Positions 34,407 through 53,200 of a stretch of DNA of 64,000 bases are shown piece by piece. The notes under the pieces were generated by a model, which was given only the letters and a program-made list of their open reading frames with translations, made no database searches and was not told the origin of the DNA. Each line of letters opens with the position of its first letter. The first letter of the stretch is position 1. The position numbers and the translations under genes were made by a program. The DNA lies in NCBI RefSeq assembly GCF_030164465.1, contig NZ_JASNJE010000006.1, forward strand, positions 124,001 through 188,000, given 5' to 3'. This stretch comes from Sedimentitalea xiamensis. GTDB lineage: Bacteria > Pseudomonadota > Alphaproteobacteria > Rhodobacterales > Rhodobacteraceae.

Positions 34407-34411
34407 TCGAG

Positions 34412-36652: not shown

Positions 36653-37396
36653 ATGTTGATCTATCCGACCATTGAATTGCAGCAAGGGCGTTGCGTGTCA
36701 CTGGACAAGGGACGACTGGACCAGGCCATGATCTGGCATGTCGATCCGGTCGAAACGGCCCGTGGCTTTGCGGCTGACGGCGCCGAATGGATGCATGTCA
36801 CAGATTTTGACGCCGTTGAGGGGCGAACCGACAACAGCGATCTTATCGAGACCATCATACGGGCCGCGGGCATTCCGGTTCAGTTGGGCGGCGGAATCCG
36901 AAGCCGGGAAACGGTGGAACGCTGGATCGATAAGGGGGTCGGCCGGGTGGTGATTGGCACCCTCGCGGCGCGCGACCCGCAACTGGTGCAGGAACTGGCG
37001 AAATATTACCCGGACCAGATCGTTCTTGCGGTGGATGTCTGGCAGGGGCAGGTCATGACCGAGGGGTGGCGCACCGCCAGCGCATTGACGCCCGAGGCCT
37101 TTATTTCGGCGTTCGGCAATGCGCCTTTCGCGGGGATCATCATTACCGATGTCGATACGGACATCTCCGAAGTCGATGCGCAATTGGGCCTGATTTCGGG
37201 TCTTGCGAGGCACGCAAGTTCGCCGGTGATCGCGAGCGGAGTCGTGCGCGGCGCCGATGATATCGCGCGGCTGGCCCATATTCCGAACATCGCCGGCGCC
37301 CTGGTCGGCCGGGCCTTGTTTCAGAAGACGATCGACCTGAAGGAAGCCTTGCGCACGGCGCAGCCGGGACCGGGGCGGATCGCCGAGTTCCTGTAA
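36653..37396 (+). CDS. HisA-related TIM-barrel protein with altered catalytic residue
   Basis: A 247-residue (beta-alpha)8 barrel homologous to HisA, the isomerase of histidine synthesis. The second catalytic Asp is kept (LAVDVWQG, Asp128). The first, Asp8 in HisA, is Glu (IYPTIELQQG, Glu8), and the RDGT phosphate loop of HisA is changed to a TDIS-type sequence around residues 169-172. It sits alone among fatty-acid genes rather than in a his operon. I infer a paralogue with a modified or different reaction, and I leave it without a gene symbol. The ATG at 36653 follows AGGAG at 36639-36643. Confidence 0.85.
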   Translation: MLIYPTIELQQGRCVSLDKGRLDQAMIWHVDPVETARGFAADGAEWMHVTDFDAVEGRTDNSDLIETIIRAAGIPVQLGGGIRSRETVERWIDKGVGRVVIGTLAARDPQLVQELAKYYPDQIVLAVDVWQGQVMTEGWRTASALTPEAFISAFGNAPFAGIIITDVDTDISEVDAQLGLISGLARHASSPVIASGVVRGADDIARLAHIPNIAGALVGRALFQKTIDLKEALRTAQPGPGRIAEFL

Positions 37397-37526
37397 CGTC
37401 ACGGTTCCACATTAGGACTGTCCGGACGCGGAAACGCGCTGATGAGAGGTGTGCTGCGCCCTTGCCCCCGTGCCCCGGTGCGGGGTAAGAGCGATGCGCA
37501 GGAGAACACGGTCGAGAGGGCAGGTC

Positions 37527-38792
37527 ATGCGCAGAGTAGTCGTAACGGGATTGGGTCTGGTGACGCCGCTGGCCAGCGGCGTCGAGGAAAGCTGGTCGCG
37601 CCTGTTGGCCGGGGAGTCCGGAGCCGGGCCGATCAAGCAGTTCGATGCAGTGGCGAGCGGTGTGACGACGACCTATGCCTGCGAAGTGCCGCTGGGCGAC
37701 GGCAGCAACGGCACGTTCAACGCGGACGACTGGCTGGAACCCAAGGAACGGCGCAAGGTCGATGACTTTATCCTGTTCGGGATCGCTGCGGCGGACATGG
37801 CCGTCCGCGATGCGGGCTGGCTGCCCGAGGCGGAAGAAGACCGGCAACGCACGGGCGTGATGATTGGGTCGGGGATCGGCGGTCTGAGTTCGATTGCGGA
37901 CACGGCCGTGATGATCAAGGAAAAGGGCCCCCGCCGGGTGTCACCGTTCTTCATTCCCGGCGCGCTGATCAACCTGATCTCGGGCCAGGTTAGTATCAGG
38001 TTCGGTTTCAAGGGGCCCAACCATTCGGTGGTGACGGCCTGTTCGACCGGCGCGCATGCGATCGGCGATGCGTCCCGGCTGATCCGGTTCGGGGATGCGG
38101 ATGTCATGATCGCAGGCGGCGCCGAAGCGGCGATCTGCGAGATCGGCATCGCGGGGTTCAATGCCTGCAAGGCTCTGAGCACGAAATTCGCCGATAATCC
38201 CAAGGCGGCCAGCCGTCCCTATGATGTCGACCGCGACGGGTTCGTCATGGGCGAAGGTGCGGGGGTCGTCGTTCTGGAAGAATATGAACACGCAAAAGCG
38301 CGCGGGGCCAAGATCTATGCCGAGGTTCTTGGCTACGGACTTTCCGGCGATGCATATCACATCACCGCCCCGTCGGAGAACGGGGAAGGCGGCGAGCGGT
38401 CGATGCGTATGGCCCTGAAACATGCCGGGCTGGAGCCGAAGGATATTGATTATATCAATGCGCACGGCACGAGTACGATGGCTGATACCATCGAACTCGG
38501 AGCTGTCGAACGCATGTTGGGAGAGTTCGCCGGGCAGGTCACGATGTCGTCCACGAAGTCGGCCACAGGACATCTTCTTGGGGCCGCTGGCGCGATCGAG
38601 GCGATTTTCGCGATCCTTGCAATCCGTGATCAGGTGGCGCCGCCGACCATCAACCTGGATAACCCGGCGGTGGAGTCCAAGGTCGATCTTGCCCCGAACG
38701 CCAAGCGCGAACGCAAGATAGATGTGGCGCTGTCCAATTCGTTCGGCTTTGGTGGGACCAATGCCAGCGTCGTCTTCGGAAAACTCCGCTGA
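37527..38792 (+). CDS. fabF: 3-oxoacyl-ACP synthase II
   Basis: A 421-residue condensing enzyme elongating acyl-ACP with malonyl-ACP. The Cys-His-His triad is complete: Cys172 in TACSTGAH, His313 in NAHGTSTMADTIE and His349 in SATGHLLGAAG, which is the KAS II pattern. The ATG at 37527 matches the family start MRRVVVTGLG; the open frame upstream is not used. The stop shares one base with mltG. Confidence 0.96.
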   Translation: MRRVVVTGLGLVTPLASGVEESWSRLLAGESGAGPIKQFDAVASGVTTTYACEVPLGDGSNGTFNADDWLEPKERRKVDDFILFGIAAADMAVRDAGWLPEAEEDRQRTGVMIGSGIGGLSSIADTAVMIKEKGPRRVSPFFIPGALINLISGQVSIRFGFKGPNHSVVTACSTGAHAIGDASRLIRFGDADVMIAGGAEAAICEIGIAGFNACKALSTKFADNPKAASRPYDVDRDGFVMGEGAGVVVLEEYEHAKARGAKIYAEVLGYGLSGDAYHITAPSENGEGGERSMRMALKHAGLEPKDIDYINAHGTSTMADTIELGAVERMLGEFAGQVTMSSTKSATGHLLGAAGAIEAIFAILAIRDQVAPPTINLDNPAVESKVDLAPNAKRERKIDVALSNSFGFGGTNASVVFGKLR

Positions 38793-39946
38793 TGTGGCGC
38801 AGCCTCGCTTCGAACATGCTGACGTTCCTGATCGTCGCGCTGTTCCTTCTGGTCGGTGTCGTCCTGTGGGGGCAGTCGCAATACAGGGCGGAAGGCCCCT
38901 TGACGGATGCGATTTGCCTGCGCGTGGACCGTGGGTCGAACATGGGGGTTGTCAGCCGCAGTCTCGAAGAACAGGGCGCGGTCACTGACAGCCTGATCTT
39001 CCGCCTGGGTGCGGATTACACCGACAAGACCGGCCAGTTGAAAGCGGGCAGTTTCCTGATCAGGCCGGGCGCGTCGATGGAGCAGATCGTTGATCAGCTG
39101 ACACGCGGGGGTGCGAGCACTTGTGGTACCGAAATCGTCTACCGTGTGGGGGTCACGAGCACGGAGGCGCAGGTGCGGGAACTGGACCCTGCGACAGATA
39201 AGTTCGTGGAGAGGGCCGCGTTCGACCCGACCGTTGACGAAGCTCCGGAAGCCTATGTCGAGAAACGGTCCATGGCGGACACAAGATACCGGATTTCACT
39301 GGCCGAGGGCGTGACAAGCTGGCAGGTCGTCGAGGCTCTGAAAGCCATTGACGCGCTTACAGGCGAGGTGGCTGAAATCCCGGCAGAGGGGACACTGGCG
39401 CCCGACAGCTACGAAATCGTCGCGGGCGCTGAACGATCGGCAATTTTGGCGAGGATGCAGGAACTGCAAACTTTGCGGATCAATGCGGTCTGGGAAAGCC
39501 GCCCCGAGGGGATTTCCCTGGCCAGTCCGGAAGAGATGTTGATATTGGCCTCGATCATCGAAAAGGAAACCGGCGTACCGGAAGAGCGCGGGCAGGTGGC
39601 AAGCGTTTTTATCAACCGGTTGAAACAGGGTATGCGGCTTCAGACAGATCCTACGGTGATCTATGGAATAACCAAAGGACAGGGAGTGTTGGGGCGCGGC
39701 CTACGGCAAAGCGAATTGCGTGGCCAGACTCCTTGGAACACCTATGTGATAGACGGTCTGCCCCCGACGCCAATCGCGAATCCCGGTCTGGCGAGCCTTG
39801 AGGCGGCCGTCGCGCCTGACGAAACAGATTTCGTGTTCTTTGTGGCGGATGGAACCGGCGGGCATGCCTTTGCGACCACGCTTGAGGAACACAATCGGAA
39901 CGTGGCGAAATGGCGAGAGATCGAGGCCAACCAGTCGAATAACTAG
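38792..39946 (+). CDS. mltG: Endolytic murein transglycosylase MltG
   Basis: A 384-residue inner-membrane enzyme (single helix at residues 9-27, catalytic domain in the periplasm) that cuts nascent glycan strands and terminates peptidoglycan polymerisation. The LysM-like region (about 40-105) and the YceG domain with the catalytic Glu257 (ILASIIEKETG) are present, followed by the conserved TDPTVIYG and YNTY-like motifs. It is translationally coupled to fabF, an arrangement common in proteobacteria. It is the last gene before the GTA cluster. Confidence 0.95.
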   Translation: MWRSLASNMLTFLIVALFLLVGVVLWGQSQYRAEGPLTDAICLRVDRGSNMGVVSRSLEEQGAVTDSLIFRLGADYTDKTGQLKAGSFLIRPGASMEQIVDQLTRGGASTCGTEIVYRVGVTSTEAQVRELDPATDKFVERAAFDPTVDEAPEAYVEKRSMADTRYRISLAEGVTSWQVVEALKAIDALTGEVAEIPAEGTLAPDSYEIVAGAERSAILARMQELQTLRINAVWESRPEGISLASPEEMLILASIIEKETGVPEERGQVASVFINRLKQGMRLQTDPTVIYGITKGQGVLGRGLRQSELRGQTPWNTYVIDGLPPTPIANPGLASLEAAVAPDETDFVFFVADGTGGHAFATTLEEHNRNVAKWREIEANQSNN

Positions 39947-40043
39947 TGTTTCTCGACAGGCCGCTACGGTTGGCCAGTTTCGCGAAATTAGGATTTTGTT
40001 AATTATGCCGGACGGTTACGTGGAAAGGGTTTAGAGAATTCGC

Positions 40044-40072
40044 TTGACTTAGCGAACGGACTCTCGTATAAG
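40044..40072 (+). promoter_or_regulatory. Strong candidate promoter of the gene transfer agent cluster
   Basis: TTGACT (40044-40049) and TATAAG (40067-40072) are separated by exactly 17 bases, the best sigma-70 match in the window. It lies about 110 bases before g1. A palindrome TTTCGCGAAA at 39978-39987 sits about 60 bases upstream and might be a regulator site. The 97 bases from the mltG stop to this promoter contain nothing else recognisable. Confidence 0.7.
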
Positions 40073-40100
40073 TTGTGGCATGCTAGAAGAAGTGGGCGAA

Positions 40101-40132
40101 CGGCCACGGGAGTTTCCCGTCGGTCGTTTTTT
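40101..40132 (+). terminator. Terminator-like hairpin in the GTA leader
   Basis: CGGCC-ACGGG (40101-40110) pairs with CCCGT-(c)-GGTCG (40116-40126), ten pairs with one bulge and one G-T pair, a five-base loop, followed directly by TTTTTT (40127-40132). It lies about 30 bases after the -10 element and 48 bases before g1. In this position it would stop most transcripts unless the polymerase is modified. Confidence 0.65.
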
Positions 40133-40179
40133 CGTTTCTCTCGTGCGGAGAAGTTCACGCATGAGGCTAATGAGCAAAT

Positions 40180-40509
40180 ATGACTTTGATTACCCCGGAT
40201 GAGTGCGTTTCGCGAACAGCTGAACTCTTGGAGTCGGTTCACGAGTCACTTCAAAGACTGCGTCAGCAGGCGGAAGACCTGCGTATGCAGCTTGAAGCCG
40301 GGGAGGATACGGATCTAGCGGACGGTAGCAAACAGGTTGCGGCGATCGAAAGACTGATCGGAGCCTGCCAGAAAGTGGAGATCAGCCTTGATGAGCAGCA
40401 CAAACGACAAGCCGGTATTGTCAGAGGGGACTACGCACTCGACATGGACGTCATTCGATTTGAGATCGGGTGCCGTCTTGCTCGCCTCCGCACCTGCGGA
40501 GATACGTGA
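40180..40509 (+). CDS. GTA gene 1, small terminase-like protein
   Basis: A 109-residue, acidic, helical protein at the position of RcGTA g1, which acts as the small terminase subunit. Residues about 8-80 are predicted coiled or helical (SVHESLQRLRQQAEDLRMQLEAG). It overlaps the terminase large subunit start by about 120 bases, as in other GTA clusters. The small terminase role is known from Rhodobacter capsulatus, and here it is assigned by position and size. Confidence 0.8.
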   Translation: MTLITPDECVSRTAELLESVHESLQRLRQQAEDLRMQLEAGEDTDLADGSKQVAAIERLIGACQKVEISLDEQHKRQAGIVRGDYALDMDVIRFEIGCRLARLRTCGDT

Positions 40510-41803
40510 AAGTTTTTTGGATGAGATCGGAAAGGGGGGGCTTCGCGCCCTCCCTTTTCTTTTTGAGTTCTGGGCACTGGAGCATCAACTGCCACCGGAT
40601 GGGGACTGGCGTGCCTGGGTTATCATGGGGGGACGGGGCGCGGGCAAGACACGCGCCGGTGCGGAATGGGTTCGAAGCCAAGTGGAGGGCGCAAGGCCGC
40701 TGGATCCGGGACGCAAGAGGCGCGTTGCGCTGGTAGGGGAAACCTACGACCAGGTGCGCGAAGTCATGATCAAGGGCGACAGCGGGATCCTGGCCTGTTC
40801 TCCGCCGGATCGGATGCCGCAATGGAAAGCCAGCGAACGCAAGCTCATCTGGGACAACGGCGCGGAAGCGCAGGTGTTTTCGGCGAGCGAACCGGAAGCG
40901 TTGCGGGGACCCCAGTTCGATGCGGCCTGGGTGGATGAGCTTGCCAAATGGAAAAAGGCGCAGGACACGTGGGACATGCTGCAATTTGCGTTGCGGTTGG
41001 GTGAGAAGCCCCAAGTCTGCGTGACCACGACGCCGCGCAATGTCAATATTCTCAAGGCGCTGCTGAAATCGCCATCGACTGTCCTGACGCATGCGCCGAC
41101 CGAAGCCAACAAGGCCAATCTCGCGGCGAGTTTCCTTGAGGAGGTGCGTAGCCGCTATTCCGGCACGCGCCTTGGCCGGCAGGAATTGGACGGCGTTCTG
41201 CTCGCCGATGCCGAGGGTGCGTTGTGGACAACCGAGATGCTTCAGAAGGCCCATGTCGAGATCGTGCCTGAACTGGACCGCATCGTTGTCGCCGTTGACC
41301 CGTCGGTGAGTTCCGGGTCCGGGTCGGACGAATGCGGAATCGTGGTCGCAGGTGCCAGGACGCAGGGACCGCCGCGCGATTGGCGCGCCTATGTTCTCGC
41401 GGACTGCACCGTGCAGGGAGTCGGTCCGACCGGTTGGGCAAATGCCGCCATAGCGGCGATGGATGTCCACGGAGCAGAGCGGCTCGTGGCGGAAGTCAAC
41501 CAGGGGGGGCAACTGGTGGAGGAAGTCATCCGGCAAGTCGATCCGCTGGTGGCCTACAAAGGCGTCCATGCGGCGCGGGGTAAATCCGCCAGAGCCGAAC
41601 CTGTCGCCGCGCTCTATGAACAGGGGCGCGTGAGGCATGTGAGGGGGCTGACCGCTCTGGAAGAACAAATGTGCCTTATGACTCCGAGAGGGTTTGAAGG
41701 GCAGGGATCACCGGATCGGATGGATGCCCTGGTCTGGGCATTGCACGAACTGATGATTGCACCGGCCGCGCAATACCGGGTTCCGCGCATAAGAGTTCTT
41801 TAA
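40391..41803 (+). CDS. GTA terminase large subunit (g2)
   Basis: A 470-residue DNA-packaging motor and nuclease. The ATPase has Walker A GGRGAGKT at residues 80-87 and Walker B with catalytic Glu (AAWVDELAKW, 178-187). The RNase H-like nuclease begins with Asp303 (VVAVDPSVSSG), with further acidic residues in EVNQGG and in the final DRMDALVWAL. GTA terminases package random headfuls of host DNA. The ATG at 40391 follows a TTG; GGAG eleven bases upstream supports it. A hairpin follows the gene. Confidence 0.93.
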   Translation: MSSTNDKPVLSEGTTHSTWTSFDLRSGAVLLASAPAEIRESFLDEIGKGGLRALPFLFEFWALEHQLPPDGDWRAWVIMGGRGAGKTRAGAEWVRSQVEGARPLDPGRKRRVALVGETYDQVREVMIKGDSGILACSPPDRMPQWKASERKLIWDNGAEAQVFSASEPEALRGPQFDAAWVDELAKWKKAQDTWDMLQFALRLGEKPQVCVTTTPRNVNILKALLKSPSTVLTHAPTEANKANLAASFLEEVRSRYSGTRLGRQELDGVLLADAEGALWTTEMLQKAHVEIVPELDRIVVAVDPSVSSGSGSDECGIVVAGARTQGPPRDWRAYVLADCTVQGVGPTGWANAAIAAMDVHGAERLVAEVNQGGQLVEEVIRQVDPLVAYKGVHAARGKSARAEPVAALYEQGRVRHVRGLTALEEQMCLMTPRGFEGQGSPDRMDALVWALHELMIAPAAQYRVPRIRVL

Positions 41804-41821
41804 CCCTTCGGTGTTGCGGGA

Positions 41822-41840
41822 CCACCGTACGGTGGGTTTT
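41822..41840 (+). terminator. Hairpin after terL, possible internal terminator
   Basis: CCACCGTACGGTGG is a perfect 14-base palindrome at 41822-41835 followed by GTTTT. It is the only marked structure in the 129-base gap between terL and the portal gene. It could be a weak intrinsic terminator or an RNA processing site; the T tract is short. Confidence 0.4.
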
Positions 41841-41932
41841 CCGAATTTTACGAAACCTCGATCATAAAGCGTCTCATCGACCCGGTCGGCGCGGACCGGA
41901 CTCGCGACGGTGATCAGACAGGAGCTTCACAC

Positions 41933-43120
41933 ATGGTATTTAAATTCTTGCGTCCTGGCGCTGAAGCGAAGGTTGTGGAAACCAAGGCAAGCGCGACCGG
42001 ACCCGTAGTGGCCTATCACAGCGCCGGACGGGTTGCCTGGAGCCCGCGGGATACGGTGTCTTTGACGCGGACCGGTTTTTCGGGAAACCCTGTCGGTTTC
42101 CGGTCCGTGAAGCTGATCGCCGAAGCGGCGGCTGCGTTGCCGCTGGTCCTGCAGGATCGCAACCAGCGTTTTGATGTTCATCCGATACTGAACCTGGTGC
42201 GCCGCCCGAACATGGCGCAGGGCCGTGCAGAGCTGATGGAGGCGCTGTTCGCGCAATTGCTGTTGTCCGGCGACGCTTATGTCGAAGCGGTTGCGAGCGA
42301 AGAAAGCGTTCCTCTGGAAATGCACGTCCTCAGATCGGATCGCATGAAGATAGTTCCCGGTGCGGACGGATGGCCGGTGGCCTATGAATACAGTGTTGGT
42401 GCGAAGAAACACCGTTTCGATGCGACTGGCCCGGTTTCCCCGATCTGTCATATCAAATCCTTTCATCCGCAAGATGACCACTACGGGTTCTCACCCATGC
42501 AGGCAGCCGCCATGGCGGTCGATGTTCACAACAGTGCGTCACGCTGGTCGAAATCGCTGTTGGACAACGCGGCCAGACCCAGTGGTGCATTGGTGTTCAA
42601 CAGCTCGGAAGGGCATGGCGCCATGGGCGATGACCAGTACCGCCGGCTGTCCGAGGAGATCGAAGCGAACTATCAGGGTGCCCGCAATGCCGGTCGGCCG
42701 ATGGTTCTGGAGGGTGGTCTGGACTGGAAGCCGATGGGTTTTTCGCCCAGCGATATGGAATTCCAGAAGACCAAGGAATCCGCGGCGCGGGAAATCGCCT
42801 TGGCCTTTGGCGTCCCTCCGATGCTGATCGGGATACAGGGTGATGCAACCTATGCCAACTACCAGGAGGCCAACCGCGCATTCTATCGCCTGACGGTTCT
42901 GCCGCTGGCCACGCGGGTGGCATCTGCCCTGAGCGATTGGTTGTCACAATTCACCGGTGAAGATTTGGAACTGAAACCTGACCTGGATCAGGTCCCGGCA
43001 TTGGCCACTGAACGGGATGCCCAATGGTCGCGAGTCTCGAACGCGGATTTCCTGACGAACAGGGAGAAAAGGGCGCTGCTCGGCTTGCCTGCTCTGGCCG
43101 AAGGGGATTCGGATGGATGA
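41933..43120 (+). CDS. GTA portal protein (g3)
   Basis: A 395-residue HK97-type portal, the dodecameric ring at the capsid vertex through which DNA passes. The central wing and clip region (SRWSKSLLDNAARPSGAL) and the C-terminal EIALAFGVPPMLIG motif with TYANYQEANRAFYR are typical. AGGAG lies nine bases before the ATG. It overlaps the small g3.5 gene by eight bases. Confidence 0.94.
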   Translation: MVFKFLRPGAEAKVVETKASATGPVVAYHSAGRVAWSPRDTVSLTRTGFSGNPVGFRSVKLIAEAAAALPLVLQDRNQRFDVHPILNLVRRPNMAQGRAELMEALFAQLLLSGDAYVEAVASEESVPLEMHVLRSDRMKIVPGADGWPVAYEYSVGAKKHRFDATGPVSPICHIKSFHPQDDHYGFSPMQAAAMAVDVHNSASRWSKSLLDNAARPSGALVFNSSEGHGAMGDDQYRRLSEEIEANYQGARNAGRPMVLEGGLDWKPMGFSPSDMEFQKTKESAAREIALAFGVPPMLIGIQGDATYANYQEANRAFYRLTVLPLATRVASALSDWLSQFTGEDLELKPDLDQVPALATERDAQWSRVSNADFLTNREKRALLGLPALAEGDSDG

Positions 43121-43340
43121 CAAGAGACCGAGATTTGAGTCTTTCGAGTGCGCCCCAGGTCTGAGGTTGGCGGCGCATGAGCGGGTTAGCCAGATCCATC
43201 ACGAAAACCTCGTCCGCCGGTTGGATCGGCTGGACGAGATGATGGAGCGGCTGGAGCGCAAGCTTTGGCTTACGGTCTATGGCGTTGTCGGCGTGATCCT
43301 GAGCCAGGCCGTTCAATCCTTCATCGTTGCGACGCCTTGA
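43113..43340 (+). CDS. Small GTA protein (g3.5-like) with one membrane helix
   Basis: A 75-residue protein located between portal and protease genes, where RcGTA has a small gene called g3.5. It has an amphipathic helix (about residues 28-48, rich in Glu, Arg and Leu) followed by one hydrophobic helix (about 52-70). Its role is not established. It overlaps the portal stop and is therefore co-translated. Confidence 0.75.
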   Translation: MDDKRPRFESFECAPGLRLAAHERVSQIHHENLVRRLDRLDEMMERLERKLWLTVYGVVGVILSQAVQSFIVATP

Positions 43341-43375
43341 GCGTCACACACTCAACTCTTGAAAAGGAGAGTTTA

Positions 43376-43933
43376 ATGGGAACCGAGAACGGACTTGAGC
43401 ACAAGTTTGCCCGTTTCGGCGATGCCTTGAGCGTCTCGGACGATGCCTTGATCCAGGGATACGCCAGCCTGTTTGGCCAGACGGACCAGGGCGGTGATGT
43501 CGTTCGGAAGGGTGCCTACGAGCGATCCCTGTCTCAACTGGCGCATGCAGGACAAAGGGTCAAAATGCTGTGGCAGCACGACCCTGCCCAGCCGATCGGT
43601 GTCTGGGACGAGGTCCGGGAGGATGCCAATGGCCTCTGGGTCAAGGGACGGATTCTGGACAGCACCCAGAAGGGCCGGGAGGCAGCGGCGCTGATCGCGG
43701 CCGGGGCGATAGATGGGCTTTCGATCGGGTATCGCACCCAGAAAGCGAGTAAGACGGACAAGGGCCACAGGCTTTTGACTGAACTGGAGCTTTGGGAGGT
43801 GTCGCTTGTGACCTTCCCGATGCTTCCCAGTGCGCGGGTGGCGGCCAAGGCCGAAAACCTGGAGGTGGAAACCACCATGCGTGAGTTGGCGGCGACATTT
43901 CACAGTGCGCGGCTGGAGCTGGCGCGCCGTTAG
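43376..43933 (+). CDS. GTA prohead protease (g4)
   Basis: A 185-residue HK97-family serine protease that trims the capsid protein during maturation. The herpesvirus-type catalytic residues are visible as His in KMLWQHDP and Ser in DGLSIGY. AAGGAGA lies six bases before the ATG at 43376; the longer open frame upstream overlaps g3.5 and is not used. The capsid gene follows after 36 bases. Confidence 0.94.
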   Translation: MGTENGLEHKFARFGDALSVSDDALIQGYASLFGQTDQGGDVVRKGAYERSLSQLAHAGQRVKMLWQHDPAQPIGVWDEVREDANGLWVKGRILDSTQKGREAAALIAAGAIDGLSIGYRTQKASKTDKGHRLLTELELWEVSLVTFPMLPSARVAAKAENLEVETTMRELAATFHSARLELARR

Positions 43934-43969
43934 CCGCGCCTTTCAATCACCAACAGACAGGATGTTCTG

Positions 43970-45151
43970 ATGAGCAAGACCGACGGGCTGGCATCGGCCA
44001 GTGAAGGTATGCCCCTGGTTCAGGAGGTGAAGCAGGCGATGACCGGCTTCGTAAGTGAATTCAAGGGCTTTCAAGATGAAATTCAATTCAAGCTTCAACA
44101 AACAGAAAAGCGACTGACCATGCTGGATCGAAAATCCCAAATCGCGGCGCGCCCGCATCTTTCCGCCGCAACCGATGAAATGGCCCCGCACCAGAAAGCC
44201 TTCAACGCCTATGTGCGTTCCGGCGACGATGACGGTCTGCGCGGATTGGACCTGGCAGGCAAGTCCATGTCGACCGCTGTGAACAGCGATGGCGGTTTTC
44301 TCGTCGATCCGCAAACCGCCGACACGGTGAAATCCGTTCTGCAGTCGACCGCTTCGATCCGTTCGATCGCGTCCGTGGTCAATGTCGAAGCAACCAGTTT
44401 TGACGTTCTGGTGGATCACACCGATGTCGGCGCCGGCTGGGCGAGCGAAACCGGGGCGCGGAGCGAAACGGACACGCCTCAGATCGATCGTATCACCATT
44501 CAGCTTCACGAACTGAGTGCTTTGCCGAAGGCGAGCCAGCGGCTTCTGGACGACAGCGCCTTTGACATCGAAGGCTGGCTGGCGGGTCGCATCGCCGACA
44601 AGTTTTCCCGTGCCGAAGCCGCTGCCTTCCTGAACGGCGATGGGCTGGACAAGCCTCGCGGCATCCTGAGCCACAACAAGGTCGACAACGATGTCTGGGC
44701 CTGGGGCAACATTGGCTATGTGCCGACTGGCGTCGATGGCGACATCGGGTTCGGTGATGCGATCGTTGACCTGGTCTATGCGCTGGGTGCGCAATATCGG
44801 GCAAACGCGACGTTTGTGATGAATTCGAAGACGGCCGGGCTTGTCCGCAAGCTCAAGGACGCCGACGGGCGTTTCCTGTGGTCCGATGGTCTCGCCGCGG
44901 GCGAGCCGGCACGCCTGATGGGCTATCCTGTCGTGGTCGCCGAAGACATGCCCGACGTTGCAAGCGACTCTTTCTCGGTCGCCTTCGGTGATTTCAATGC
45001 AGGCTATACCATCGCCGAACGCCCGGACCTGCGGGTGCTGCGTGATCCGTTCAGCGCGAAACCTCATGTTCTTTTCTATGCGACCAAACGTGTCGGCGGT
45101 GATGTTTCGGATTTTGCCGCGATCAAATTGCTGAAATTCGGCGTCGCCTAA
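43970..45151 (+). CDS. GTA major capsid protein (g5)
   Basis: A 393-residue HK97-fold capsid protein. Residues 1-100 or so form a helical scaffold segment (EVKQAMTGFVSEFKGFQDEI) that the prohead protease removes. The mature coat begins near KSMSTAVNSDGGFLVDPQ and contains the E-loop, the SETGARSETDTPQ region and the C-terminal axial domain. It is followed five bases after the stop by a large RNA hairpin. As the most abundant GTA protein it should need higher expression than its neighbours. Confidence 0.96.
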   Translation: MSKTDGLASASEGMPLVQEVKQAMTGFVSEFKGFQDEIQFKLQQTEKRLTMLDRKSQIAARPHLSAATDEMAPHQKAFNAYVRSGDDDGLRGLDLAGKSMSTAVNSDGGFLVDPQTADTVKSVLQSTASIRSIASVVNVEATSFDVLVDHTDVGAGWASETGARSETDTPQIDRITIQLHELSALPKASQRLLDDSAFDIEGWLAGRIADKFSRAEAAAFLNGDGLDKPRGILSHNKVDNDVWAWGNIGYVPTGVDGDIGFGDAIVDLVYALGAQYRANATFVMNSKTAGLVRKLKDADGRFLWSDGLAAGEPARLMGYPVVVAEDMPDVASDSFSVAFGDFNAGYTIAERPDLRVLRDPFSAKPHVLFYATKRVGGDVSDFAAIKLLKFGVA

Positions 45152-45155
45152 AGCG

Positions 45156-45195
45156 GCGTCCGATACAGGGCCATTATAGGCTCTGTGGTGGACGC
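45156..45195 (+). other. Large stem-loop directly after the capsid gene
   Basis: GCGTCC (45156-45161) pairs with GGACGC (45190-45195), and ACAGGGCC (45165-45172) pairs with GGCTCTGT (45179-45186) with one G-U pair. A symmetric three-base internal loop and an ATTATA apical loop complete the structure. No T tract follows, so it is not an ordinary terminator. A role in protecting or processing capsid mRNA is likely. The rest of the 167-base gap to g6 shows nothing else. Confidence 0.65.
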
Positions 45196-45318
45196 GCGTC
45201 TGGAGAGACCCCTCATGTTGTCTAGCTGCTCCCCTCCGTCCGAGCAATGTGGGGCGACGCGTGTCCACCGAAACCGAATGAACTGGCCCGGAGGGGTCCG
45301 AGCTTGCGGAGTGACGTT

Positions 45319-45918
45319 ATGATGTTGATCGAAGAAACCACCGTGCCCGATACGGCATTGCCAGTGGCCGAGTTCAAGGCGCATTTGCGGTTGGGTACTG
45401 GCTTTGGTGAGGAGAGCTTGCAGGACAGCGTTCTGAAAAGTTTTCTTCGCGCAGCAATCGCGGCGATCGAGGCGCGGACCGGCAAGATATTGATTACGAG
45501 AGAGTTTTCATGGTCTTTGACCGGTTGGCGTGACCGCTCCGGGCAAGCGCTGCCTGTTTCTCCGGTCACGGAGATCAGCCGAGTGACCTTGATCGATGCG
45601 CTGGAGATCGAATCCGAGTTGCCGAGCTACAGGTTCCGCCTGGAGAAGGACAGCCAGCGCCCGAGGTTGCGTCCGACAGACAGCCTATTGCCGATGGTGA
45701 GAACCGGAGGGTCGGTTCGCATTAACTTCCGCGCCGGATTCGCGCCGACCTGGGGGGAGTTGCCAGCGGATCTGGGGCAGGCCGTACTGTTGTTGGCCGC
45801 TCACTACTATGAGTACAGAAATGAGACAGCATTGAGCGACGGGTGCATGCCATTCGGCGTCAGCAGCTTGCTTCAACGCTACCGGGTGATGCGCATCGGG
45901 ATTGGATCGGTCCAATGA
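45319..45918 (+). CDS. GTA head-tail connector / adaptor (g6)
   Basis: A 199-residue protein matching the gp6-type connector family in RcGTA position g6. The N-terminal EFKAHLRLG..., helical bundle and the LVAAIE-like repeats with IEARTGKILI are typical; the beta part contains TEISRVTLIDA. It would sit under the portal ring in the neck. GGAG lies seven bases before the ATG at 45319. The stop overlaps the next gene as ATGA. Confidence 0.88.
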   Translation: MMLIEETTVPDTALPVAEFKAHLRLGTGFGEESLQDSVLKSFLRAAIAAIEARTGKILITREFSWSLTGWRDRSGQALPVSPVTEISRVTLIDALEIESELPSYRFRLEKDSQRPRLRPTDSLLPMVRTGGSVRINFRAGFAPTWGELPADLGQAVLLLAAHYYEYRNETALSDGCMPFGVSSLLQRYRVMRIGIGSVQ

Positions 45919-46253
45919 ACGGGCCGCATCTGAATCGTCTGTTGTCTCTGGAGGCTCCGATACGGATCGCTGACGGGGCCGGCGGCTACGTGGAAACCTG
46001 GGCCGTGCTGGGTGAACACTGGGCGGAAGTCCGGTCCCGGACCGGCCGGGAACGCGACGAGGCTGGCGTTCCGATATCGACGGTCAGCTACAACATCGTG
46101 GTGCGCAGTGCGCCGTTCGGCTCGACTGCACGCCCCATGCCGCAACAAAGGTTTCGGGATGGCCAGCGGCTTTTCGTTATTCAGGCGGTGGCAGAACGGG
46201 ATCGCGAAGGCCGGTTCCTGACATGTTTCGCGGATGAGGAATTGGTCGCATGA
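45915..46253 (+). CDS. GTA head-closure / stopper protein (g7)
   Basis: A 112-residue beta-rich protein of the SPP1 gp16-type head-tail joining family in RcGTA position g7. The WAEVRSRTGRERDEAG and FVIQAVAERDREGRFL segments are typical. It closes the DNA-filled head and links the connector to the tail. It overlaps g6 by four bases and g8 by four bases. Confidence 0.87.
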   Translation: MNGPHLNRLLSLEAPIRIADGAGGYVETWAVLGEHWAEVRSRTGRERDEAGVPISTVSYNIVVRSAPFGSTARPMPQQRFRDGQRLFVIQAVAERDREGRFLTCFADEELVA

Positions 46254-46663
46254 GTTATGGGCTTGCAAATGCACTACAGACGGCAGTCTACCAGCAGCTC
46301 CGTTCTGACGCCCTCGTCAGCACGCTGGTCGGCAACGCCGTCTACGACGCTCTGCCGGTCGGCGATGTACCGAACCTGTACGTAACCCTTGGTCCGGAAA
46401 CCGTTCGGGACAGGTCTGACATCAGCGGCGTCGGCGCAGAACACCGATTCATCATTTCCGTGGTGACGGATGAGGCCGGATTCGGTGCGGCCAAAAACGT
46501 TGCTGCGGCCGTTGGCGACGCGCTGATCGACGCGGATCTGCCGTTGTCGCGCGGTCGCTTGGTCGGACTTTGGTTCGATCGGGCAACAGCACGGCGGACA
46601 GGCAAAGCGGGGCGTGTGCGGCGCATCGATCTGAGATTTCGCGCACGCGTCGAAGACAACTAA
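46250..46663 (+). CDS. GTA tail terminator (g8, DUF3168)
   Basis: A 137-residue DUF3168 protein beginning MSYGLANALQTAVYQQL, with YDALPVGDVPNLYVTLG next. Members cap the tail tube and attach it to the head. The gene overlaps g7 by four bases, consistent with coupled translation in the neck gene set. Confidence 0.9.
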   Translation: MSYGLANALQTAVYQQLRSDALVSTLVGNAVYDALPVGDVPNLYVTLGPETVRDRSDISGVGAEHRFIISVVTDEAGFGAAKNVAAAVGDALIDADLPLSRGRLVGLWFDRATARRTGKAGRVRRIDLRFRARVEDN

Positions 46664-46687
46664 TCAACCAATTTTTGGAGACACGAT

Positions 46688-47101
46688 ATGGGTGCCCAGA
46701 ACGGCAAGGACCTGTTGGTCAAGGTGGATATGAATGGTGGCGGGCTTTTTGAGACAATCGCCGGTCTTCGCGCAACGCGCGTCAGTTTCAACGCGGAAAG
46801 CGTGGACGTGACCAGTCTCGAAAGCCAGGGCGGTTGGAGAGAGCTATTGTCCGGCGCTGGTGTCAAATCGGCCGCGATTTCCGGGTCTGGAGTATTCAAG
46901 GACGCCGGAACCGATGAACGCGCGCGCCAGCTCTTCTTTGACGGGGAAACCCCTGATTTCCAGGTGATCATTCCTGATTTTGGCGTTGTCGAAGGCCCTT
47001 TTCAGGTGACGTCTATTGAGTATGCGGGAAGCCACAACGGCGAAGCCACCTATGAGATGTCTTTGGCGAGCGCCGGAGCGCTCACGTTCACGGCGCTGTA
47101 G
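46688..47101 (+). CDS. GTA major tail protein (g9)
   Basis: A 137-residue beta-sandwich tail-tube protein beginning MGAQNGKDLLVKVD, with ESVDVTSLESQGGWREL and GSGVFKDAGTDERARQLF motifs. It polymerises into the GTA tail tube. TTGGAG lies just before the ATG. It is shorter than the tail-tube proteins of many siphophages, which is typical for GTAs. Confidence 0.93.
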   Translation: MGAQNGKDLLVKVDMNGGGLFETIAGLRATRVSFNAESVDVTSLESQGGWRELLSGAGVKSAAISGSGVFKDAGTDERARQLFFDGETPDFQVIIPDFGVVEGPFQVTSIEYAGSHNGEATYEMSLASAGALTFTAL

Positions 47102-47105
47102 TCCT

Positions 47106-47426
47106 GTGGCGAACCCGTGGACTGGAGAGGTGGCCTTGGTCATCGATGGAAAGAAGCGTGTCTTGAAACTCACTCTCGGAGCGTTGGCGGAATTGGAACA
47201 GGTTCTGGAAACAAAGTCTCTCGTGGCTCTTGTCGAGAGGTTCGAAGGCGGATCGTTCACCACGAAGGATGTGATTTCCCTGATCGCGGCGGGACTGCAA
47301 GGCGGCGGAACAGATATTTCGGCGGTCGACCTTGGCCGGGCGGACATCAAGGGCGGACCAATGATGGCCGCACGGGTTGCCGCAGAGCTTCTTGCCCGTG
47401 CCTTCATGTTGCCTGGGGAAGAATGA
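47106..47426 (+). CDS. GTA tail assembly chaperone (g10)
   Basis: A 106-residue protein starting at the GTG at 47106, four bases after the tail-tube stop. The VIDGKKRVLKLTLGALAELE segment identifies the gene-transfer-agent family protein at position g10, the equivalent of phage lambda gpG that coats the tape measure during assembly. It overlaps g10.1 by four bases. In phages G and GT arise by frameshift; here they are two separate coupled genes. Confidence 0.9.
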   Translation: MANPWTGEVALVIDGKKRVLKLTLGALAELEQVLETKSLVALVERFEGGSFTTKDVISLIAAGLQGGGTDISAVDLGRADIKGGPMMAARVAAELLARAFMLPGEE

Positions 47427-47608
47427 CAAGCTTTGACTGGGCGGCCTTGATGCGAGCCGGACTGCAGGGCCTGAGACTTACACCGGACGTGTTCTGGAAC
47501 CTGACACCCGCGGAACTGCGCCTGATGTTGGGAAATGCGACGGCCGAGTCATCGTTATCCCGCGCTGGACTGGATGCATTGTTGGCTGCCTATCCAGACG
47601 AAAAATGA
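47423..47608 (+). CDS. GTA second tail assembly chaperone (g10.1)
   Basis: A 61-residue protein equivalent to the T extension of phage gpGT, encoded at RcGTA position g10.1. FDWAALMRAGLQGLRLTPDVFW and TPAELRLMLG are family features. The ATG overlaps the g10 stop (ATGA), so re-initiation could set a fixed ratio between the two chaperones. Confidence 0.85.
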   Translation: MTSFDWAALMRAGLQGLRLTPDVFWNLTPAELRLMLGNATAESSLSRAGLDALLAAYPDEK

Positions 47609-47618
47609 GGAAAAGTTG

Positions 47619-48278
47619 ATGAGCGACGAGATTGGTATGACGGCCCTCGAAGGTCAGGCTGAAGCGTTGGAGGACAGCCTTGGTGCCGCGGCCAACATGG
47701 CCGCGGGGTTTGATTCCGAACTCCAACGGGTCCGAAATTCCCTCGCTGGCACGGGAAAGGACATCGCGTCGCTGGAGCGGGGACTGTCCAACGGACTTAG
47801 GCGGGCCTTTGATGGAGTTGCGTTTGACGGCATGAAGCTGTCGGATGCGCTGGAAACGGTCGCGCAATCCATGATTCAGACGACGTATTCGGCCGCGATC
47901 AAGCCGGTCGCAAATCATTTTGGCGGACTTTTGGCGCAGGGCGTCAATGGAATTGTCGAAGGTATTTTGCCATTTGCCGATGGCGCGAGTTTCTCACAAG
48001 GCCGTGTTACTCCGTTTGCAAACGGCGGAATCGTATCCGGACCGACAACTTTCCCGATGCGCGGAGGGATGGGACTCATGGGCGAAGCGGGCCCGGAAGC
48101 GATCATGCCACTCGCGAGAGGTGCCGACGGAAAACTAGGGGTGCGAAGTGCCGGTGGTCGCTCGGTTAACGTCGTGATGAATATCACAACGCCTGACGTG
48201 CAGGGTTTCAACCGGAGCCAGGGTCAGATCGCGGCTCAGATGAGCCGGGCTTTGGGCCGCGGCAATCGCAACCGGTGA
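47619..48278 (+). CDS. GTA tape measure protein (g11)
   Basis: A 219-residue tape measure that sets tail length. Residues about 5-80 are helical; the middle has AIKPVANHFGGLLAQGVNGI, and the C-terminus has the glycine-rich FANGGIVSGPTTFPMRGG...EAGPEAIMPL segment typical of tape measure ends. The short length agrees with the short (about 50 nm) GTA tail. The ATG at 47619 lies shortly after g10.1. Confidence 0.92.
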   Translation: MSDEIGMTALEGQAEALEDSLGAAANMAAGFDSELQRVRNSLAGTGKDIASLERGLSNGLRRAFDGVAFDGMKLSDALETVAQSMIQTTYSAAIKPVANHFGGLLAQGVNGIVEGILPFADGASFSQGRVTPFANGGIVSGPTTFPMRGGMGLMGEAGPEAIMPLARGADGKLGVRSAGGRSVNVVMNITTPDVQGFNRSQGQIAAQMSRALGRGNRNR

Positions 48279-48301
48279 ACGGAAAGACAGGGGAGAAGAA
48301 T

Positions 48302-48934
48302 ATGAGCTTCCACGAAGTGAGATTTCCGGCTTCGCTGAGCTTTGGCTCGGTTGGCGGGCCTGAACGACGCACGGATGTCGTGACGCTGGCCAATGGATAC
48401 GAAGAGCGCAACACGCCTTGGGCCCATTCGCGACGTCGGTATGATGCCGGTCTGGGCATGCGATCCCTGGACGACATTGAGACCCTGATTTCCTTTTTCG
48501 AAGCTCGGAGAGGTCAGATGTTCGGTTTTCGTTGGAAGGACTGGTCTGATTTCAAGTCGGGGCGGTCATCGGCTGAAACGTCGTTTGACGATCAGGTCAT
48601 CGCCATTGCCGATGGTCACAGAACCGAGTTTCCGTTGGTCAAGACTTACCGATCTGGAGAGTTCTCATACGTCAGGCCGATTGCCAAACCTGTGCTTGGC
48701 TCGGTTCGTATCGGAATCGAACAAGATGAGATGAAGGAGTCGGTCGACTTTTTTGTCGATGTTGCGACCGGTTTCATCCGCTTTGAACAACCCCCCGCGG
48801 AAACCATGAGAATAACCGCCGGGTTCGAGTTCGACGTTCCCGTCCGGTTTGACACTGATCGCATCCAAACCAGCGTTGCCAGCTTTCAAGCAGGCGATGT
48901 GCCCAATGTTCCTGTCATTGAGGTTCGTGTGTGA
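48302..48934 (+). CDS. GTA distal tail protein (g12, DUF2460)
   Basis: A 210-residue DUF2460 protein that forms the hexameric distal end of the tail tube. SFHEVRFPASLSFGSVGGPERRTDVV at the N-terminus and the FRWKDWSDFKSG segment are highly characteristic. A GGGAGAAG ribosome site precedes the ATG at 48302. It overlaps g13 as TGATG. Confidence 0.93.
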   Translation: MSFHEVRFPASLSFGSVGGPERRTDVVTLANGYEERNTPWAHSRRRYDAGLGMRSLDDIETLISFFEARRGQMFGFRWKDWSDFKSGRSSAETSFDDQVIAIADGHRTEFPLVKTYRSGEFSYVRPIAKPVLGSVRIGIEQDEMKESVDFFVDVATGFIRFEQPPAETMRITAGFEFDVPVRFDTDRIQTSVASFQAGDVPNVPVIEVRV

Positions 48935-49821
48935 TGGTGGCAGATAGCGAGGCTTTTCAGGAGCATGTCTCCACCGGCTTGACCACCCTGTGTCGGTGCT
49001 GGGCCATCACGCGCAAGGATGGCGTACAGATTGGGTTCACGGATCACGATTTGCCCCTGTTTTTTGAGAATATTGCCTTTAAGGCGGATACGGGCTTGTC
49101 GGCCTTGGCCTTACAGCAGAGTACAGGTCTTTCAATCGACAATACCGAAGTTCTTGGTGCACTCAGCGATGCTGCAGTGCGCGAAACAGACATTGTTGCC
49201 GGGCGGTTCGATGGTGCCGAAGTTCGGTCCTGGTTGGTGAACTGGGAAGACGTTTCCATTCGGAAACTGCAGTTTCGCGGCTCTATTGGGGAATTGCGCC
49301 GCGGCGGCGGCGCCTTTCACGCGGAACTTCGCGGTCTGACCGAAGAACTCAACAAGCCGATTGGGCGGATTTATCAGCGTCCGTGCACCGCTGTGCTTGG
49401 TGATTCCAGCTGCGGATTCGATCTGGATTCGGATGGGTACTTTCTGGAACGCGGCGCGGAGCTGGTTGAAGACGCACGCATCTTTCGCTGGAAAAGCTTA
49501 TCAGACTTCGAGCCAGGTTGGTTTGCTCGAGGTCGGCTTTCGGTCAAGTCTGGTGAAGCGGCAGGTCTTTGGGGCGTCATCAAAAGCGATCGGTTTGAAG
49601 GCGATCTTCGCGTCATCGAATTGTGGGAACCCATCCGTGCAAACGTAGCGGCGAATGACTTGCTTAGATTGGATGCCGGGTGCGACAAGCGCATGGAAAC
49701 CTGCCGTCTGAAGTTTGCAAACTTCGTCAACTTCCAAGGATTTCCCGATATTCCCAGTGAAGACTGGGTTATGGCCGTTCCAAAGCAGAGTGGCAGGAAT
49801 TCTGGAGGGAGCCTGCGCTGA
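48934..49821 (+). CDS. GTA baseplate hub protein (g13, DUF2163)
   Basis: A 295-residue DUF2163 protein forming the hub trimer of the baseplate. Four cysteines in CTAVLGDSSCGFDL and GCDKRMETCRLKF match the iron-sulfur-binding set seen in the RcGTA hub. I start it at the ATG at 48934, which shares a base with the g12 stop; a GTG at 48931 directly precedes it. The stop shares a base with g14. Confidence 0.92.
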   Translation: MVADSEAFQEHVSTGLTTLCRCWAITRKDGVQIGFTDHDLPLFFENIAFKADTGLSALALQQSTGLSIDNTEVLGALSDAAVRETDIVAGRFDGAEVRSWLVNWEDVSIRKLQFRGSIGELRRGGGAFHAELRGLTEELNKPIGRIYQRPCTAVLGDSSCGFDLDSDGYFLERGAELVEDARIFRWKSLSDFEPGWFARGRLSVKSGEAAGLWGVIKSDRFEGDLRVIELWEPIRANVAANDLLRLDAGCDKRMETCRLKFANFVNFQGFPDIPSEDWVMAVPKQSGRNSGGSLR

Positions 49822-50270
49822 TGTCGGATAAGAAATGTATCGTCACCATCGCACGGAGTTGGATTGGGACGCCCTATCGCCACCAGGCGGCCACCAAGTC
49901 AGCGGGAACAGACTGCCTGGGACTCATTCGCGGAGTGTGGCGGGAACTGAACGGATTCGAGCCGGAAAGCGTTCCTCCATATTCGATGGACTGGTCGGAA
50001 CCACAGGGAGAGGAACGTCTGTGGGAGGCCGCCAAGCGTCACTTGATTGCCAAACCCATATCGGTTCCAGAAATGGAACCAGGCGAGATTGTGCTCTTCC
50101 GGATGAAAACCGACGCCGTTGCCAAGCATCTCGGCCTCATCGCTGACACCGGCAAGCAGCCGACCTTTATCCATGCATATTCTTATCATGGGGTAGTCGA
50201 AAGCCCCCTGAGTGAACCCTGGCGGCGCAGAATAGTTGCCCGTTTCATTTATCCTTTGGAGATCATCTGA
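49821..50270 (+). CDS. GTA NlpC/P60 cell-wall peptidase (g14)
   Basis: A 149-residue NlpC/P60 peptidase that opens the recipient peptidoglycan during DNA delivery. The catalytic Cys32 lies in GTDCLGLIRG, His103 in AKHLGLI and another conserved His118 in FIHAY. It is coupled on both sides to the hub and megatron genes. Confidence 0.93.
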   Translation: MSDKKCIVTIARSWIGTPYRHQAATKSAGTDCLGLIRGVWRELNGFEPESVPPYSMDWSEPQGEERLWEAAKRHLIAKPISVPEMEPGEIVLFRMKTDAVAKHLGLIADTGKQPTFIHAYSYHGVVESPLSEPWRRRIVARFIYPLEII

Positions 50271-53200
50271 TGGCGACCATACTTCTTTCAGCCGCAGGCG
50301 CCGCCATTGGAGGATCCATTGGTGGGTCTGTGGCCGGGCTTTCTTCTGTTGTGATTGGACGCGCGGTTGGCGCTACGCTCGGCCAGGCGATAGATCAACG
50401 TCTATTGGGCCAGGGTGCGACGGCGGTCGAGACGGGTCGGGTCGACAGGTTCAGGTTGACCAATGCCGGCGAAGGAAACCCCATTGCGCAGGTGTATGGG
50501 CGCACGAGGGTCGGAGGACAGGTTATCTGGTCCTCTGACTTCAGAGAGTCGTCCAGCACAACCGATGGTGGGGGCAAGGGTAGCCCAAGCACGCCGGAAG
50601 TGACGACCTTCAGCTATTCCGTTTCGCTTGCGGTTGCTGTTTGCGAAGGTGAAATCAATTCGATCGGAAGAGTCTGGGCGGACGGAACCGAAGTTTCAAA
50701 AGACGATTTGAACATGCGCGTCTATCCCGGAAGCAGAGATCAGCCGCCGGACCCAACCATGGAGGCCGTGGAGGGTCGGGGCAATGTTCCGGCATACCGG
50801 GGAACGGCCTATATTGTGTTTGACAACTTGCCACTGGGCAAGTTCGGGAACCGAGTTCCGCAATTCTCCTTCGAAGTGATCCGGACGGAGCAAGAAAGCT
50901 CGAGAACTTTTGAGCGCGATCTGCCTCAACTTGTGAGGGGTGTGGCGTTGATGCCTGGAACCGGAGAATATGCTTTGGCGACGTCGCCCGTGTATTACAC
51001 GAAGGAACCTGGAAGCAGCTGGCCGGCGAACATCAATAGCCCGTCCGGGAAAACGGATTTCGTTACTTCGATGGAAATGCTGGCCGACGAACTACCAAAA
51101 TGCGATGCGGCATCTCTGGTCGTTTCGTGGTTTGGAGATGATCTGAGGTGCGGGTATTGTCAAGTTCAGCCGAAGTTCGAGCGACGCGAAGTTGAAGGAA
51201 GCAATATGCCCTGGAGCGTTTCGGGACGAACCAGATCAACGGCGCTGGAAATTGCGGAGGAGGAAGGTCGGCCAATTTATGGTGGTACACCTGCCGACAA
51301 AGCGGTCATCGAGGCCATCCGTCACATGAATGCGCAAGATCGCCGTGTGATGTTCTATCCCTTTATCCTTATGGATCAAACCAGCGGAAATGGTTTGCCT
51401 GACCCGTGGACTGGCGCCGAGAACCAACCGGTCCTCCCCTGGCGGGGGCGGATCACGTTATCGGCGGCACCGGGAACCGAAACGTCCCCCGACGGAACCG
51501 AAGCGGCGGATGCGGAAGTTCAGAAACTTTTCGGCAAAGCAAAAGCGTCGGATTTCAAAGTTGTTAGCGGGAATGTTTCTTACCATGGACCGCAGGAATG
51601 GGGACTTCGGCGATTCATTTTGCACTACGCGGCGCTTTGCGCCGCAGCAGGCGGGGTATCATCTTTCTGCATTGGGTCAGAGATGAGAAGCCTCACGCAG
51701 ATCAGGGGCGCGAACGGATTTCCTGCGGTTTCCGCATTGAAGGAATTGGCTGGGGAAGTGCGAAAACTGGTGGGATCCGAAACGAAGATCGGCTATGCGG
51801 CGGATTGGTCAGAGTACTTCGGCTATCAGCCACAGGATGGTAGCGGAAATCGATACTTTCATCTTGATCCACTTTGGGCAGATGAGAATATCGATTTCAT
51901 CGGAATTGACAACTATATGCCCTTGTCTGACTGGCGCGATGGCGCAGATCATGCCGATTCGGAATGGGAGTCCGTTTACAATCCGGAGTACTTGCAGAAA
52001 AACATCGAAGGCGGAGAAGGGTATGATTGGCACTATCATTCTTCGGAAGCGAGATCGGCACAGATACGGACCGAGATTTCGGATCTTGAACATGGTGAAC
52101 CCTGGGTCTGGCGATACAAAGATCTGCGTTCGTGGTGGAGCAAGCCGCATCATGAACGCATTGATGGGGTGCGGCAGGTCGAACCGACGGCGTGGGTTCC
52201 CCAATCAAAGCCGATCTGGTTTACTGAACTGGGTTGTGCCGCAGTAGACAAGGGCACCAACGAACCAAATAAGTTCGTGGATCCGAAATCTTCGGAATCC
52301 AGCCTGCCAAGCTTCTCGAACGGAATGCGCGATGACTTCATGCAAATGCAGTTTCTGCAAACGGTTCTTGCGTATTGGCAGGATGGCGATCGGAACCCGA
52401 ATTCGGATCTTTATGACGGCAAGATGGTCGATGTTTCGAATGCTTATGTTTGGGCATGGGATACACGCCCATACCCAATGTTTCCAAACAATCGGATGCA
52501 ATGGGACGACGGGGCAAACTATGCCCGTGGGCACTGGATCAATGGAAGAGTCGGAACACGCAGTTTGGCTTCCGTGGTTGAAGAAATATGCGCCCGTTCC
52601 GGTCTGACAAAAGTTGATACTAAACGGCTCTTCGGAGTAATTCCCGGATATGTTGTGGAACAAATTGGTGACGCAAGAGGCGCGTTGCAACCTCTTATGT
52701 TGCGTTTCGGGTTTGATGCTGTCGAGCGTGATGGATTGTTGATCTTCGCGACGAGAAACGGAAATAATTCCAAACCAATCGATTTGGAAAGAGTCGCCGA
52801 ATGCGATGAAATCGAAGGAATCCTGCAAAAGAGCAGAGATGCCGAAGCCGAAATGACCGGACGAGTCCGGGTGCGTTTCATTCAATCCGGAGCGGACTAT
52901 GATCTCGTCGCGGAAGAAGCCGTCATGGCCGACGATGCGACGCATGCCGTTTCGACAAATGATCTCCCACTTTCGATGACCAGGGCCGAGGGGCGTCAGG
53001 TTGCGGAGAGATGGCTGGCCGAGGCAAGGGTTTCACGTGACAGGATCCGGCTCGCGCTGCCGCCTTCAATGATTGGCATCGGCGCTGGAGATGTAATCAG
53101 GGTGCCAGACTGTCTGGAGAGTGGTGAAGCTCTTTTCAGGATCGACATGGTGGAGCAATCTGGTCTTCAAATCGTTGATGCTGTGCGTGTTGAACGGAAC

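Follow-up and report, generated by a model that had tools for sequence, protein, structure and literature searches.

The window analyzed here, a stretch of 64,000 nucleotides from Sedimentitalea xiamensis (NCBI RefSeq contig NZ_JASNJE010000006.1, positions 124,001–188,000), contains an intact RcGTA-type cluster extending from g1 up to the gene for the GTA_TIM protein, with the g1-g15 gene order and the GTA terminase, HK97 capsid, and GTA_TIM protein that mark members of this type (Table 1). Rhodobacteraceae are abundant in the sea, and GTA genes are silent in most cells. The g1 product recovered no match in a Pfam search. Directly downstream of g15, an ORF on the reverse strand (54381-54998) resembles an IS66-type transposase by eye. 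A strong terminator-like hairpin also occurs at the start of the terminase gene (window 40529-40559); we considered it as a possible terGTA analog and rejected it, as it is found in 52 of 133 loci vs 131 of 399 synonymous resamplings, a pattern attributable to the conserved peptide and codon usage, with no selection seen.

Table 1. Features of the GTA leader and of the genes flanking it in the window.
Feature	Position	Strand	Remarks
mltG (yceG)	38792..39946	+	upstream of the GTA promoter and co-oriented with the GTA genes
-35 element TTGACT	40044..40049	+	TTGAC nearly invariant (100 leaders)
Conserved spacer motif AGCGAACGGAC (family TGCGnaCGgTC)	40051..40061	+	candidate element for the GafA C-terminal domain
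-10 element TATAAG	40067..40072	+	family TAnAnn, T avoided at -7
Predicted transcription start	40080	+	A of a near-invariant CA, 8 bases after the -10
Conserved initial transcribed block CATGCTAGAAGAAGTGGGC	40079..40097	+	
TAGAAG, candidate -10-like pause element	40084-40089	+	+5 to +10; putative pause role
Outer helix GAAGUG (40089-40094) : CGUUUC (40133-40138)	40089..40138	+	spans the U-tract
Terminator hairpin H1	40098..40129	+	14 pairs, 3-base loop, one bulge
U-tract TTTTTT	40127..40132	+	predicted 3' end of a ~53-nt leader RNA
Second hairpin H2, CUCGUGC : GCAUGAG	40140..40165	+	overlaps the probable g1 ribosome-binding GAGG
g1 ORF	40180..40509	+	ATG at 40180; homologs in relatives
GTA structural genes g2-g15 (terminase, portal, capsid, tail, GTA_TIM protein)	40388..54193	+	
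Terminase	40388-41803		
Capsid	43970-45151		
GTA_TIM protein	50270-54193		

The region between mltG and g1 shows the layout given in the first-pass annotation of this DNA, namely a promoter, a hairpin, and a TTTTTT run, all at the coordinates named there and with 48 bases between the T-run and the g1 ATG. The -35 and -10 elements are separated by a 17 bp spacer, and this promoter pattern has a single perfect match in the organism's own genome. The same annotation had called the promoter near-consensus, and the TTGACT-N17-TATAAG arrangement at 40044-40072 does match the consensus at 10 of 12 positions, but the important T at -7 is missing. Its further expectations of a very active promoter and of constitutive initiation found no support: T is present at -7 (window 40072) in merely 2 of 100 leaders, the -10 element is variable across the family (e.g., TAGAAA in Rhodobacter capsulatus) with just the T and A of its first two positions being kept, and GafA is a known activator. 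The family-wide avoidance of T at -7 exceeds what neutral drift would give. Alphaproteobacterial promoters mostly lack this T and in that case frequently depend on CarD (PMC8407463); a high level of constitutive activity is hence not to be taken for granted. The absence of the -7T is also the reason why a promoter scan of the window passes over the GTA promoter. The start dinucleotide CA is almost without exception (C in 98/100 and A in 100/100 leaders), and the conserved spacer motif, in which G54 and C57 reach 1.92 bits among the 100 leaders, lies in the place occupied by the ZBE, QBE, and ABE, viz., between the -35 and -10 elements.

The hairpin that follows the start (H1; GAACGGCCACGGGA-GUU-UCCCGU(C)GGUCGUU) had been described as having ten pairs; the hairpin is indeed present, but its stem comprises 14 pairs and one bulge if the AA:UU base is counted. 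The segment 40078-40140 folds with -26.5 kcal/mol (z = -3.7), with none of 200 shuffles being as good. Since terminator-like sites in the region 32000-51000 number 25 vs 17.2 +/- 4.9 in shuffles, the single sequence taken alone is suggestive and only moderately convincing as a terminator. Using a definition of a hairpin with dG <= -6 and then at least 5 T in 8, we found the hairpin and U-tract in 102 of 107 leaders vs 42 of 321 dinucleotide shuffles (13%), with a median of -22.4 kcal/mol for the hairpins of the 107 leaders. Part of these leaders were found by leader similarity, which favors intact ones; loci fetched via the capsid, which are free of this bias, show the same result. The T-run is likewise conserved (1.7–2.0 bits at T128-T131 among 100 leaders). 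In a MAFFT alignment made without structure, 94.7% of the pair cells of the stem hold standard pairs, and double changes amount to 47 vs 14.5 expected (0/500 shuffles reach this value); when the partner is slid by 1–3 columns, the pairing falls to 40–54%. Moreover, certain diverged leaders (L142, L156, L159) rebuild the terminator with other sequence, and a further one missed by the leader model (L192) also keeps a terminator of other sequence. A separate terminator is found between mltG and the GTA promoter in 27 of the 58 loci with mltG placed, including that of R. capsulatus, and accordingly we rejected a plain mltG terminator as the full explanation of H1. The window locus has no such separate terminator, as is the case in about half of the leader-bearing loci tested, and a double role for H1 in terminating both mltG and GTA transcription is possible where it is absent. 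Together, the conservation, the covariation, the rebuilt terminators, and the separate mltG terminators make a well-supported case, drawn from the sequences, that H1 has been selected as an intrinsic terminator with a constant position between the GTA start and g1. By its predicted structure and conservation, it corresponds to the intrinsic terminator between start and first gene that typifies Q/AlpA-type control.

A blastn search with 39960-40200 detected the leader in 67 of 198 genomes of the family, with g1 often being more diverged. An alignment of 37 leaders shows distinct conserved blocks: the -35, TGCGnaCGgTC, a variable -10, an invariant CA, and CAwGCTAGAAGAAGTGGGC, followed by the hairpin, the U-tract, CTCTCGTGCGGA, and GCATGAG. 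A covariance model built on the leader matches 282 of 395 Rhodobacteraceae genomes, a sample with nearly one genome per genus, and does so nearly always as a single copy; in the S. xiamensis genome the next match after the single copy has an E-value of 1.7. In a class-wide sample of 385 genomes, the matches are confined to two members of the family and one weak outsider. Likewise, nearly all of the 74 GTA loci that were fetched by the R. capsulatus capsid protein alone, with the leader not being used, contain it, including those of both R. capsulatus strains. The first-pass annotation had set a lack of hairpin conservation in related GTA leaders as the result that would speak against its reading; the hairpin proves to be conserved family-wide, R. 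capsulatus included. A search of Rfam 15 found no family matching the leader (best score 24.2 bits vs a cut-off of 80, outside the leader), and a survey of open-licence papers found no GTA leader terminator or small RNA.

The leader model has no match in 70 of the 318 capsid-positive genomes (~22%), and among 18 such genomes inspected, a few possess diverged terminators and the others none at this place; GTA control can thus work without one. Other lineages (L010, L011, L014, L189, L199, L200) have a GTA leader that is conserved but of another kind, in which ACAGGCAAnAAAGGTATCGAGC immediately precedes g1 and a terminator is not obvious; this leader perhaps represents a second solution to GTA control. 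The cluster of Rhodobacteraceae bacterium QY30 (L111 5058-5186) is rearranged, with under 1 kb between the leader and the downstream capsid gene as against the usual ~4 kb. The leader is also kept in 34 genomes without a capsid match; of 12 fetched, most had the cluster deleted. Five loci from as many genera, L173 (G071), L174 (G083), L177 (G268), L178 (G271), and L180 (G166), display the same GTA deletion, which joins terminase codon ~186 (FDAAWVDE) to g15 codon ~644 (GCAAVDKG) and leaves the leader and, in most, g1; several contain an in-frame fused ORF of 800–900 aa. This deletion may have arisen repeatedly, or else once long ago with the fusion protein being retained since. L172, L175, L176, and L181 have other deletion breakpoints.

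Conservation extends beyond the promoter into the transcribed region, with the first 16 transcribed bases being conserved to the same degree as the -35 element and T84, G86, T93, and G94 present in all 100 leaders. Within it, a TAGAAG-like block is conserved at +5 to +10, with its last base being G and not T, and by analogy this could be a -10-like pause element of the kind seen in Q-controlled promoters (PMC6606751). In R. capsulatus, GafA binds an EMSA probe from 76-125 bp upstream of g1 (PMC6363796, PMC9638019). This probe computes to CATTGCGGACGCTCTAAGGTAGAAATAAGCCATGCTAGGAGAGGTGGGCA, and comprises the spacer motif, the -10, the start, and the initial block, ending where the hairpin begins and excluding the latter. 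The spacer motif thus falls inside the equivalent of the GafA-bound probe (PMC6363796) and is the counterpart of the Q/AlpA-type element between -35 and -10, with the binding being known at the level of the probe.

The S. xiamensis genome codes for one DUF6456 protein (E 2.7e-63), GafA (382 aa), whose gene has an upstream CtrA-type TTAAC-N6-GTAAC site, as is reported from R. capsulatus (PMC6363796). In an AlphaFold model made from 16 homologs (mean pLDDT 71.8), residues 3-73 match domain IV of DnaA (Z 9.1, 2.0 A over 71 residues), residues 104-210 match PadR-like winged helices, and residues 303-376 match sigma region 4 with a middling Z (Z 6.9, 1.5 A over 62 residues). As modeled, the protein displays both the DnaA-like N-terminal DNA-binding part and the sigma-like C-terminal helix-turn-helix of the GafA family. 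Foldseek alone recovered nothing at E <= 0.001 with this model; Q and AlpA structures do not feature among the fold matches listed, which is no evidence of their absence. GafA is present in 276 of 282 leader-bearing genomes vs 85 of 112 genomes without the leader (Fisher p 4e-11), and the association has p 0.03 when limited to capsid-positive genomes; the link is present and is partly explained by the presence of the GTA and by genome completeness. In one genome (L203, G007), the gafA frame has an internal TAA, with the GTA cluster partly deleted and the leader intact. In Caulobacter, GafY is the counterpart of the N-terminal part of GafA (DUF6456) and GafZ that of its C-terminal part; GafZ is a proven antiterminator that travels with RNA polymerase past terminators (PMC11150451). 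The same study suggests that GafA may have an unrecognised antitermination activity, and the conserved leader terminator is the missing target for such an activity.

Comparisons with other systems bring out both shared and distinct features. The Caulobacter GafY/GafZ system shares a homologous DUF6456 activator, has a binding element between -35 and -10, where the Rhodobacteraceae leader has its candidate element, and needs to overcome intrinsic termination before the bulk of the cluster can be expressed, a need that in the Rhodobacteraceae is predicted from the sequence (PMC11150451). However, its promoter (AATCAT/TATCTTT) has a 229-nt leader unlike that found here, and its terminator consists of three 150-bp repeats downstream of the first gene (gtaT), whereas here there is a small hairpin ~20–50 bases after the start and before the first gene (PMC11150451). 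For AlpA of Pseudomonas aeruginosa, which controls lysis in a subset of cells, the binding element is situated between the -10 and the -35, and terminators precede the first gene (PMC7969949, PMC9371919). At PA0807, the terminator begins 26 bp after the start (PMC7969949), as compared to ~18 bases between the predicted start and H1; AlpA itself is a different protein that is not recognized here as a relative of GafA. The Q-dependent late promoters of phages lambda and 21 combine an element between the -35 and -10, a -10-like initial sequence, and a downstream terminator ahead of late morphogenesis genes, and the DNA-binding part of 21Q is sigma4-like (PMC6606751), as is the C-terminal part of the GafA model. 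In contrast to Q promoters, the -10-like TAGAAG of the GTA leader is merely a candidate; and GafA differs from Q in its additional DnaA-IV-like and winged-helix parts and in contacting omega. The R. capsulatus GTA promoter itself (L092:1996-2113) agrees with that of the window in its -35, spacer motif, initial block, hairpin, U-tract, and distance to g1; in the passages considered from the RcGTA and GafA papers, activation alone is described and a terminator is unmentioned (PMC6363796, PMC9638019).

The conserved stop signal ~50 bases after the GTA start suggests that early termination holds these genes silent until an activator allows RNA polymerase to pass, and the anatomy of the leader matches that of Q/AlpA-type antitermination. 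Hence, with moderate confidence, we favor a promoter-proximal termination checkpoint overcome by GafA-loaded polymerase with a Q/AlpA logic. Under this proposal, RNA polymerase starting at ~40080 would make a ~53-nt RNA and halt at the hairpin and U-tract ending at 40132. GafA would bind the promoter spacer and the initial transcribed block (between -35 and +20), recruit RNA polymerase, and load onto it, with the resulting complex ignoring the leader terminator and later ones and transcribing g1-g15. The selected terminator, the conserved block where R. capsulatus GafA binds, and a GafA with a modeled sigma4-like C-terminal part support this proposal; the actual termination, the loading of GafA on the polymerase, and the read-through are the three steps that we infer. 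Antitermination by GafA at the leader terminator is likely by analogy, and fits with the coincidence of the GafA-binding region and the conserved block (PMC6363796, PMC9638019), and with Caulobacter GafZ (PMC11150451).

Against this checkpoint, GafA is known to act on initiation by recruiting RNA polymerase via omega (PMC9638019), and this action could suffice. H1 might then be a real terminator that serves as a passive insulator against leaky mltG or basal GTA transcription, with GafA only raising initiation such that enough polymerases leak through without dedicated antitermination. The co-oriented upstream mltG, the loci (including the one in the window) that lack a separate mltG terminator, and the avoidance of -7T, which suggests that initiation is itself weak and activator-dependent (PMC8407463), are all in keeping with such a role. 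Nevertheless, we regard it as unlikely, given that the 27 loci with a terminator upstream of the promoter keep H1 all the same, that so strong a terminator 50 bases into its own operon would be costly unless it could be overridden, and that the homologous GafZ is an antiterminator (PMC11150451).

The leader has further structural potential beyond the terminator. The strands of the outer helix (family GAAGUG:CRUUUC) are paired in 96.8% of the cells, with double changes at two pairs (e.g., GACGUG:CAUGUC), and as its 3' strand lies beyond the U-tract, this helix would form only in the read-through RNA. H2 is paired in 92.7% of the cells and also appears in the fold of the whole leader; in most genera it covers the probable g1 ribosome-binding site, and in others it is rebuilt with other sequence or lost. 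A second, translational lock formed by these read-through structures is possible. That the outer helix and H2 both form only in the read-through RNA and act either as an RNA element comparable to HK022 put or as such a second lock, with the short leader RNA also having a life of its own, appears doubtful to us at present; a leader RNA of this kind would explain why, in many genera, the leader persists after the GTA genes have been deleted.

Still more doubtful is the idea that the promoter, 5' block, and terminator are first and foremost a small RNA gene for a trans-acting product, with g1 expression being a by-product of read-through. The anatomy, with ~20 conserved 5' bases followed by a terminator and U-tract, would suit such a gene, as would the retention of the leader in genomes without a capsid match, several of which have the GTA cluster deleted. 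However, the GafA probe spans the 5' block, which can be conserved as DNA, and at 40089-40094 the compensated changes within this block indicate structure. Moreover, the deletion scars often retain an intact g1 and fused ORFs, which implies that the deletions may be recent, damage is already apparent in the hairpin of L182 and in near-invariant bases of L176 and L179, and the leader matches no Rfam 15 family. An RNA-only attenuator, in which a leader peptide, riboswitch, or alternative structure decides termination without a protein antiterminator, can draw on the covarying outer helix and the H2 over the probable g1 ribosome-binding site in the read-through RNA, but is highly improbable because there is neither an Rfam match nor a conserved pairing found to compete with H1, and because a leader peptide from the +1 AUG (40080) had to be rejected, with the second base being A, G, or C in 37 of 100 leaders and the loop lengths breaking any reading frame.

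The GTA switch of R. capsulatus has so far been explained by activation only. If the termination checkpoint overcome by GafA is true, the decision to express the GTA would also be taken during elongation, including in R. capsulatus, and the antitermination activity proposed for GafA becomes directly testable by means of the 53-nt RNA and a simple reporter. Phage late-gene control (Q), the programmed lysis of bacteria (AlpA), and the GTAs of Caulobacter and of the Rhodobacteraceae would then share one design.
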